NCBI GenBank assembly: GCA_022820625.1
Contig: JAJEFE010000095.1
Coordinates: 1-64,000, forward strand
Direction of reading: 5' to 3'
DNA: 64,000 nucleotides
Source of the DNA: Gammaproteobacteria bacterium
Lineage (GTDB): Bacteria; Pseudomonadota; Gammaproteobacteria; Steroidobacterales; Rariloculaceae
How positions within the stretch are numbered: the stretch's first letter is position 1; every line of letters starts with the position of its first letter. Below, piece after piece: positions 11,469-55,385 of this stretch. Below the pieces are notes generated by a model. That model was not told the DNA's origin. It worked only from the letters and a program-made list of their open reading frames with translations, and searched no databases. Made by a program: the position numbers and the translations under genes.

Positions 11469-14400
11469 ATGAGCGACTCCGCACAGCGCCGGCTCGCCCT
11501 GCAGACAGACCGATCCTTTATCGTTCAGGCGCCTGCGGGATCGGGCAAGACAGAATTGCTCATCCAGCGCTTTCTGGCATTGCTGGCGACCGTTGAGTTG
11601 CCCGAACAGGTCATCGCGATCACATTTACCCGCAAGGCGGCAGCGCAGATGCGCGACCGCGTGCTGGCGGCGCTGTCCTCCGCAGCCCGGGAAGAACGGC
11701 CAGGGCAGCCGCACCGGCTCCGGACCTACGAGTTGGCCCGGCAAGCGTTGGCCCGGGACCGGTATCTGGGCTGGTCTCTGGTCGAACAACCAGCCCGGCT
11801 CAAGATCGATACGCTGGACGCGCTCAATGTCTGGCTCGCACAGCGCTTGCCGATCGCGTCCGGCGGGATCGGAGCGGCACGCATCGTCGAAGATGCCTCC
11901 GAACACTATCTGACTGCCGGAAGGCGAATGATGCAGCAGCTGGGAGACGCTTCGCCGGGGGTCCGCGCATTGCGGTTCCTGCTCGAGGCGTCCGACATCA
12001 GCGCCGAGCGCATGGTAACGCTGATGGCGCAGATGCTCGCTACTCGCGACCAGTGGCTGCCCCATGTCTTCGCTGCGGGCGAATCGGACTTGCGCATTAT
12101 TGTCGAACGAGCCTTGCGCCGTTCGATCGAGGAGGATCTGGTCACCCTGTCGCAATTGATTCCCGAGGCGGCCGGCCAGCAACTGGTACCGCTGATGAAT
12201 CACGTGGCCAGGCACGCGCCCCGATACGCCCCTCAGTTCGAGCCGTGGCTGCGTCTGGAAGCATTACCGCCCCCTTCGGTAGACCATCTCAAGGCCTGGA
12301 AGGCACTGCCGGAACTGCTGCTGACAGGGCAGGGGGCATGGCGCAGGCAGCCGGGCGCCATCGGGTTTTCAGGTCGGTTCGCCACCCTTGGCGGCGATCT
12401 GAAGGAACTGATCTCATCGCTTGCAGAATCGGAGGAACTTCGCGTTGCGCTCGTCGAGTTGAAGCGCCTACCCGCCTCGCTCCCGGGACCGGCATGGTGG
12501 GACGCCATGTCGGCGCTTCGAAGTTCGCTGCAACACCTCGTGGCCGAATTGCGGGTCCTGTTCGCGGAACGCAATACCGCTGATTTCATTGAACTGGCTC
12601 TGGCCGCCCAGCGCGCCCTTGGAAACTCGGCGCGACCCTCGGACCTGCTGCTTGCTCTCGATCGACGCATCCAGCACATCCTCGTGGACGAGTTCCAGGA
12701 TACGTCGCGTTCGCAGATAAGACTCCTGGAACTGCTCACGTCCGGTTGGGAGCCCGGCGACGGCCGTTCGCTCTTTCTGGTCGGCGACCCCATGCAATCC
12801 ATCTACCGGTTCCGGAATGCCGACATGTCGCTGTTCCTCCGGGTCAAGCATGAGGGCATCGGGGATATTCGTTGCGAATCGCTGGAGCTGACCCGGAATT
12901 TCCGTAGCGCTCCGGTGGTGATCGATTGGGTGAATGAAACGTTCACGAGAATCTTTCCGGCTGAGGATGACCTCCGGGCCGGTGCCGCCCGGTTCAGTCC
13001 CTGTGAAGCGGTCAGGGCGTCCTCTAGCCAGCAGACTGTGCAGGTGCACGGGCTTCGGGGGTCGGACCCGGACGCGGAGACTCGACGCGCAGCGGAGATC
13101 GCCGCCGCCGAAAGGGCCCGGTCCGAGTCCGGTTCGGTGGCGATCCTGGTGCGGAGCCGCAGTCACCTCGCGGGCCTGCAAAGCCACCTTCGCGCCCTGG
13201 GCCTGCACGCACACGCCGTTCAACTCGAAGCGCCCAACCAGCATCAGGTCACCCAGGATCTCATCGGACTGACCCGGGCATTGACTCATCGCGGCGATCG
13301 TGTCGCCTGGCTGGGGGTGTTGCGGGCTCCGTGGTGCGGCCTGAACTGGAGGGATCTTCACGGCCTGTGCCGAGGCGATTCGGACAGCGCGGTATGGACG
13401 TTGATGCACAATGCCGGACGCGTCGCCAGGCTGACCGAGGGCGGCCAGGCACGATTGAAGCGCCTGTGCGCAATCCTGCAAATGGCTTTCCATGAACGAG
13501 CCGCCCAGCCCCTGGCCCGCTGGGTGCAGCGGACATGGCTGACTCTGGATGGACCCGCCTGTCTTCTGGAGTCCCGGGACATGGATCGCGCAATGCATTT
13601 TTTTGCGGTCCTGAGAGAGGCCACCGTCAGGGGCGATCTGGACGATCCGAGCACTCTGGACAGCCTGTTCGACGATCCCGCCGCGATCATGGACCGTCCC
13701 CGGGAGAGCGGTATAGAGATCATGACCATTCACAAGGCCAAGGGGCTTGAGTTCGACACGGTCGTGCTGCCGGGGTTGGGACGCGAAGCCCGATCGGACA
13801 AGGGCAAGGCGTTGTATTGGCATGAACGGGTGCACGCGGACGGCGAGGAATCGGTCTTGCTGGCACCGTTCTCCGCGGGTTCGGATGAACGGGACGCGCA
13901 CACCCGATGGCTCAGGGGTATCGAACAGCGCAAGGAGTTCTCCGAGCGCGCGCGTCTGCTCTACGTGGCGACAACCCGCGCCAGGGAACGCCTGCACCTG
14001 ATCGGTCAACTTCCGGTCGGGCAAACCAGACCGCGTGCGAGAAGTTTGTTCGCCTTCCTCTGGCCGCAAGAATCTTCTGCCTTCGAATCGGCCGGCACGC
14101 CGGACGATACCGGCCAACAGGAAGAGGGCGCGTTCGAGCCCCAGCTCAGACGACTGATCGATACGGCGCGGCGACCGGAGGGCGCAATGCCCCCCGGTGA
14201 GGTTGAGCGACGTCCCCATTTCCAATGGGCGGGACAAGCCGCGCTACAGGTCGGCATAGTAGTTCACCAGTGGTTGCACACCATCGCAAGGGATGGGATC
14301 GAGCGTTGGGATGCCGGACGCGTCCGGGCCGGCATTGACCGCTACCGGGCGGAATTGCAATTGCTCGGGGTCGATGAGGATGAACTCCGGGAAGCGTCAT

Positions 14401-55060: not shown

Positions 55061-55385
55061 GCCCGGGTGGCGGAATTGGTAGACGCAAGGGACTTGGCGA
55101 ATTGAGCACTCAGGCCGGAAACGCCTGTTTGAATGGAGTCAAATTCGGGGAAACCTCAGCGCATCGAGGCGGTGGCAATCCCGAGCTAAGCCCCGTTCCG
55201 CAACCGGATCGGGGAAAGTGTAGAGACTTGACGGCTCCTGCCTAACCCGTCCACGCGACGGTACGGCAAAGAGAAAGTCCAGACCACAAATGCGCCGTTC
55301 GCCGGCGCAGCAGCGAAAGCTGTAGCGGGTAAGAAAATCCCTCGGAGGCAACTCCATGCCGGTTCGAGTCCGGCCCCGGGCACCA
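55061..55385 (+). tRNA. tRNA-Leu(UAA) interrupted by a group I intron
   Basis: Exon 1 is 55061-55095 and exon 2 is 55334-55385. The spliced tRNA folds fully. Acceptor is GCCCGGG (55061-55067) with CCCGGGC (55375-55381), then discriminator A and encoded CCA. Anticodon stem is AGGGA (55088-55092) with TCCCT (55338-55342), with loop C-U-U-A-A-A-A, so the anticodon is UAA split after U34. The long class II variable arm is GGAG/CTCC with a GCAA loop. The T arm is GCCGG-TTCGAGT-CCGGC. A 22-base hairpin (55395-55416) follows but overlaps the next gene's end and lacks a T-run. Confidence 0.95.
55096..55333 (+). ncRNA. Group I intron (IC3-like) in tRNA-Leu(UAA)
   Basis: 238 nt, inserted after U34 and ending in the required G. 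P1 pairs exon CUU with GAG (55104-55106), giving the U-G splice pair. Helices read by eye: P2 CAGGC/GCCTG (55111-55115, 55123-55127), P4 TTCGGG/CCCGAG (55144-55149, 55180-55185), P5 CCTC/GAGG, P6 CCCCG/CGGGG (55191-55195, 55210-55214), P7 GACTT/AAGTC (55225-55229, 55275-55279), P8 CCGTC/GACGG (55247-55251, 55257-55261), P9 TGCGCCG/CGGCGCA (55291-55309) and a CAGC-GAAA-GCTG hairpin. P, Q, R and S core elements match those of cyanobacterial tRNA-Leu introns as I recall them. There is no open reading frame inside, so no homing endonuclease. Confidence 0.93.

Follow-up and report, generated by a model that had tools for sequence, protein, structure and literature searches.

A tRNA gene cut in two inside its anticodon raises two questions: can it still supply a tRNA, and where did the interruption come from? 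We addressed both for a tRNA-Leu(UAA) gene found in 64,000 nucleotides of bacterial DNA (hereafter the window, meaning this whole stretch), which belong to a contig of 107,922 bases (C64) in an assembly of 4.56 Mb, 169 contigs and 95% completeness. The preliminary description took the host for a gammaproteobacterium, which the assignment of congeneric and related metagenome-assembled genomes (MAGs) to Gammaproteobacteria/Proteobacteria supports.

The trnL(UAA) intron of cyanobacteria and plastids, a textbook ancient intron common to both, is a group IC3 intron located at the U34/A35 site. The window intron shares with it the tRNA, the site, the helices and the core motifs, but lies in another host phylum; it is 74.8% identical to the intron of Anabaena, the one cyanobacterial sequence compared. 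The proteobacterial introns of tRNA-Ile(CAU) (Azoarcus type) and tRNA-Arg(CCU) (Agrobacterium type) are also group I introns in anticodon loops, but they interrupt other tRNAs at other insertion points. According to a review (PMC4033280), tRNA introns of bacteria are on record from cyanobacteria and from alpha- and betaproteobacteria, and the tRNAscan-SE 2.0 paper names Ile2 introns in Acidovorax and Burkholderia, which the program was not designed to detect (PMC8450103).

The preliminary description named tRNA-Arg(CCU) and tRNA-Ile(CAU) as the proteobacterial tRNAs known to carry group I introns. Both tRNA-Leu(UAA) and tRNA-Arg(UCU) introns had, however, been described for Beggiatoa (BOGUAY) and Thiomargarita in PMC4853749, which cites MacGregor 2013a for the Beggiatoa Leu(UAA) intron. 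As described there, Candidatus Maribeggiatoa (BOGUAY) and Thiomargarita nelsonii Bud S10 resemble our case in having a gammaproteobacterial host, the same tRNA and an interrupted copy that is the only one found; the hosts are of a different family, and the paper gives neither secondary structure nor subtype for their introns. Split genes of this kind are therefore known; the present analysis extends them to dozens of proteobacterial species, to resistance plasmids and to phages. We found no earlier report of this breadth in the literature searched, most subscription journals lying outside the search.

The split gene and its place in the genome

ARAGORN in intron mode found a complete tRNA-Leu(UAA) at window positions 55061-55385 of the plus strand, 87 bases long when spliced and interrupted between its positions 35 and 36 (gactt-intron-aaaat, that is, U34/A35) by an intron of 238 nt, in agreement with the coordinates, intron length and insertion after U34 of the preliminary description (Table 1). 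Without intron mode the program reported zero tRNAs in the window, so ordinary annotation would miss this gene. The Rfam model RF00028 (Intron_gpI) matched positions 55086-55294 over its full length (1-253 of 253) with an E-value of 3.5e-9. The Rfam check that had been proposed thus gave a significant match, although its score of 41.4 bits falls under the gathering score of 50; many confirmed relatives score 30-57. The minimum free energy of the whole gene was only moderately unusual (z -2.4), so the case for the intron rests on comparison. The longest stop-free stretch of the intron in any frame is 64 codons, and no homing endonuclease gene is present within the 238 nt, which leave no room for one. 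No simple sigma-70 consensus was found upstream of the gene. A LOOT RNA (RF03000) candidate at positions 55239-55342, the P8-P9b part of the intron, reached 26.4 bits against a cut-off of 46.4, and matches in the window and three relatives (26-32 bits) all stayed under that cut-off. We treat it as a chance likeness of two hairpins; the sole weak class-wide match (L355) has no tRNA call or evident intron.

The genome yielded 63 tRNA matches, and we inspected every one longer than 80 nt. The intact tRNA-Leu genes carry the anticodons CAA, UAG, CAG and GAG; an intact tRNA-Leu(UAA) was not seen among the 63 matches of the 169-contig, 95% complete assembly, which bears out the view of the split gene as the sole copy; an unassembled intact gene elsewhere in the genome is possible. 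A strict sequence pattern detected an intact tRNA-Leu(UAA) in 71 of 196 genomes of the same order, but in none of the 23 that carry a sequence-verified split gene (versus 71 of the other 173). It had been proposed that both UUA and UUG decoding would depend on splicing. This holds for UUA, which accounts for 5 of 6075 codons in ten window open reading frames (ORFs), but the intact tRNA-Leu(CAA) offers a second way to read UUG, so that only UUA decoding strictly depends on splicing.

A 26-tRNA array lies on a 100-kb contig (C166) of the window's own assembly (L062:6680-9790) and may represent a phage, another mobile element or contamination. tRNA-Leu(UAA) is absent from it.

Intron structure and predicted splicing

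We aligned 47 homologous split genes and evaluated on them the structure drawn from the window sequence, pseudoknot included. The proportion of paired cells was 91.2%, versus 75.8±0.5% in shuffled alignments and at most 48.5% when the partner strand was slid. Cells changed on both sides of a pair numbered 557, versus 178±14 in shuffles, and the covariation score was 0.392 versus 0.132, with none of 500 shuffles as high. P3, which is GGAG/CUCC in the window, is CUGC/GCAG in other lineages, and P7, GACU/AGUC elsewhere, is changed on both strands in Lysobacter defluvii (GAGC/GCUC), a double compensatory change. The pairing of P5 as drawn did not hold across sequences (20.7% paired), and we make no claim for it. 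The intron has the P3/P7 pseudoknot around P4-P6 with P8, the U.G wobble in P1 and the final G that characterize group I. Together with the ARAGORN call and the RF00028 match (E 3.5e-9), the covariation upholds the earlier identification of a group I intron in tRNA-Leu(UAA); its overall resemblance to tRNA introns suggests an IC3-like type.

Table 1. Features of the split tRNA-Leu(UAA) gene, in window coordinates, with their support.
Feature	Position	Strand	Support
5' exon: acceptor 5' strand, D arm, anticodon stem 5' strand, loop to U34	55061-55095	+	ARAGORN intron mode; 47 homologues
P1 5' strand, exon CUU	55093-55095	+	splice-site U34.G pair in 47/47
Group I intron, 238 nt, IC3-like, without open frame of useful size	55096-55333	+	ARAGORN, RF00028, covariation
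P1 3' strand, internal guide sequence GAG	55104-55106	+	P1 100% paired
P2 hairpin, GAAA loop	55111-55127	+	~77-92% paired, variable
P3 5' strand GGAG (partner CUCC, 55235-55238)	55135-55138	+	100% paired; both-side changes in 4/4 pairs
P4 (UUCGGG/CCCGAG), enclosing P5	55144-55185	+	P4 97.9% paired
P6 hairpin	55191-55214	+	both-side changes in 7/7 proximal pairs; 83.7% paired
P7 5' strand GACU, G-binding helix (partner AGUC, 55276-55279)	55225-55228	+	paired in 47/47
P3 3' strand CUCC	55235-55238	+	47-sequence covariation
P8 and extension	55239-55268	+	94.7% and 81.1% paired, compensatory changes
P7 3' strand AGUC	55276-55279	+	47-sequence alignment
P9 hairpin	55291-55309	+	both-side changes in 7/7 pairs
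P9b hairpin (CAGC GAAA GCUG)	55311-55322	+	99.5% paired
Terminal intron guanosine (omega-G), 3' splice site	55333	+	invariant in 47 sequences
3' exon: A35 A36, remaining anticodon arm, long variable arm, T arm, acceptor 3' strand, encoded CCA	55334-55385	+	ARAGORN; stems in 47 homologues

The acceptor, D and anticodon stems are 100% paired in the 47 homologues, and the tRNA stems formed from the joined exons are 98-100% paired yet variable in sequence; selection therefore acts on the spliced product as a tRNA. Judged from these sequences, the intron is very probably functional, in a tRNA that looks essential.

Splicing has been studied experimentally for the cyanobacterial and Azoarcus introns, and it is from homology to these that we infer splicing of the window intron and its chemistry. 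In the pre-tRNA, P1 would form between the exon sequence CUU and the guide GAG, placing the U34.G pair at the splice site. Bound in P7, an exogenous guanosine would attack after U34, and the freed 3'-OH of U34 would then attack after the terminal G of the intron, so that U34 and A35 become joined and the UAA loop is normal. Processing by RNase P and the other usual maturation steps would complete tRNA-Leu(UAA).

Relatives in proteobacteria, plasmids and phages

A group I intron match was found in 78 of 196 genomes of the same order. Reading of the sequences placed tRNA-Leu(UAA) introns in four of its families (f1, f10, f12 and f15) and verified them in 23 genomes; tRNA-Ile(CAU) introns are widespread in the order, which also has tRNA-Lys(CUU), tRNA-Arg(UCU) and probable 23S introns. 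Among the group I introns in further proteobacterial tRNAs, those of tRNA-Lys(CUU) (L008, L009, L113) appear in family f16 of the order; those in tRNA-Arg(UCU) lie at L096 and L353, and L333, called His, is likely a tRNA-Arg(CCU). Relatives that ARAGORN labelled Gln(ctg), Arg(ccg) and Phe(gaa) were read as Ile(CAU) and Leu(UAA) genes whose boundaries the program had misplaced.

We scanned named genomes with a 21-base pattern spanning the end of the intron and exon 2. It occurred at 78 places, 76 of which are tRNA-Leu(UAA) intron-exon junctions, nearly all proteobacterial (in about nine of these junctions the DNA record stops before exon 1). Gammaproteobacterial MAGs (Steroidobacteraceae, Chromatiales, Acidiferrobacterales and others) make up most of the hosts, joined by Lysobacter defluvii, several Bradyrhizobium, Tepidamorphus and one Nitrospinota MAG. 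With the core pattern GGAARGTGYAGAGACTNRACGG, matches were obtained in 13 genomes among 369 from the class and in 22 among 398 from the phylum, the latter including at least 12 alphaproteobacterial tRNA-Leu(UAA) introns as well as Agrobacterium-type tRNA-Arg(CCU) introns. With 23 genomes of the order, 76 named-genome matches and at least 12 alphaproteobacterial genomes, the intron is not the proteobacterial oddity it had seemed; of the two origins first proposed, transfer from cyanobacteria and a wider ancient distribution, the second is the better one.

Split tRNA-Leu(UAA) genes also occur on plasmids. A BLAST plasmid match led to a complete one with a 215-nt intron, adjoining a tmrB-like ATPase gene, aac(3)-IId and IS26 (L192:2386-2686; NZ_CP139688.1, ~13523-13823). 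Megablast found near-identical DNA in 1,317 plasmid records, in 1,246 of which cover was 80% or more. Of 5,426 complete E. coli genomes, 645 have it as well; almost all of the matches listed have no annotated feature underneath. Two further split genes lie on a conjugative Bradyrhizobium plasmid (L193:2995-3284) and on the megaplasmid of Mycetohabitans rhizoxinica (L194, ~2000-2350).

Among phages, split tRNA-Leu(UAA) genes are carried by the cultured Agrobacterium phage Atu_ph07 (NC_042013.1, L396:1195-1556; 278-nt intron) and by a 735-kb uncultured phage (LR756501.1, L397:995-1285), and a group I intron splits tRNA-Lys(UUU) in Gordonia phage Daredevil (NC_048021.1, L196:1422-1733). The same intron core was seen in at least 120 viral contigs (L197-L276), many times in tRNA genes (Leu-UAA, Arg-UCU, Lys and others) and in some contigs apparently within protein genes. 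No viral contig matched a cyanobacterial-type core pattern. The word 'intron' is missing from the Atu_ph07 paper, which counts 33 tRNAs, and a 2014 review knew phage introns in protein genes only (PMC3984707).

Origin of the window intron

In an intron tree of 118 rows and 217 columns, the window's genus and its sister genus form a group (support 100/97) inside a 48-row gammaproteobacterial clade (98/91). A second intron type unites alphaproteobacterial introns, a few gammaproteobacterial ones, the Nitrospinota intron and one from a plasmid; a third group holds most phage introns, and the tRNA-Ile(CAU) introns form a separate clade (97/98). With the long rows dropped, the whole gamma-type set was supported at 48/96. 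Within the genus, 6 of 7 sampled genomes have the intron, and the seventh, 86% complete, yielded no exon 1. We are highly confident of an explanation in which a resident group I intron of IC3-like type, lacking an endonuclease, interrupts the sole tRNA-Leu(UAA) gene after U34; the intron would belong to a large gammaproteobacterial tRNA-Leu(UAA) lineage, have been inherited within the genus and be an old proteobacterial inhabitant, not a recent cyanobacterial arrival.

Given the split genes of conjugative plasmids and phages, the whole gene might move between proteobacteria on such elements and the window copy be an import, which we think unlikely. Gamma-type introns were found in exons with an [AG]GGGA anticodon stem in 22 of 22 cases, versus 12 of 39 intact genes of the order (Fisher p 5e-8), and the alpha-type introns of the order sit in foreign-looking GCGGACG exons. 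The restriction to [AG]GGGA exons is consistent with a split gene passed on whole, by descent or by transfer, but vertical descent of one split gene also predicts the exon-intron link. Moreover, no integrase, phage or plasmid gene was found near the window copy among the proteins tested, and the flanks on both sides are collinear with those of two independently assembled congeners (L180/L077 and L168/L075; 78-90% identity). More distant congeners keep the split gene, though not its neighbours.

A recent lateral transfer of the trnL gene or its intron from a cyanobacterium into the window's lineage, in line with one of the two preliminary suggestions, appears distinctly improbable. The insertion site and core motifs do match those of the cyanobacterial and plastid intron, and MacGregor et al. 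2013, judging by its title as PMC4853749 gives it, makes a case for exchange between Beggiatoa and cyanobacteria. However, the nearest relatives of the window intron are all gammaproteobacterial, with 87-100% identity within the genus and up to 89.5% in other gammaproteobacteria, compared with 74.8% for the Anabaena intron. Its nesting in the gammaproteobacterial clade leaves recent cyanobacterial transfer unsupported, and its exons are of the gammaproteobacterial GCCCGGG type. In an approximately unbiased (AU) test with the Anabaena intron, a single short cyanobacterial sequence, a join was not rejected (p-AU about 0.2).

It is very improbable that the resident intron is a decayed, non-splicing remnant, with UUA read by another tRNA. 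The RF00028 score below the cut-off and the rarity of UUA would suit such decay, but the core helices, the splice-site U.G and the omega-G are intact under covarying constraint, all tRNA stems pair and the assembly holds no other tRNA-Leu(UAA). A chimera with cyanobacterial DNA, raised at the outset as a possible refutation, has nothing in its favour and is ruled out for practical purposes by the collinear flanks in two independent assemblies and by the presence of the intron across the genus.

The window gene may be one resident member of something larger. We regard the chances as evenly balanced that tRNA-Leu(UAA) introns, rather than being a cyanobacterial trait with rare exceptions, make up a large family in alpha-, beta- and gammaproteobacteria, for the most part unannotated, which comprises two or more intron lineages and moves in the form of entire split genes on conjugative plasmids and phages. 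The window intron is less exceptional than first thought, and the broad pattern deserves a survey. Split genes explain missing tRNA-Leu(UAA) calls in genome annotation. With the same site filled in many proteobacterial families, usually in the sole copy, the sampling behind the history of the trnL intron changes, and common origin and repeated insertion become testable against each other. Split genes on resistance plasmids and phages offer a concrete vehicle for spread; if the larger family is real, transfer of whole split tRNA genes by such elements would be a route by which the trnL intron site came to be shared among phyla.
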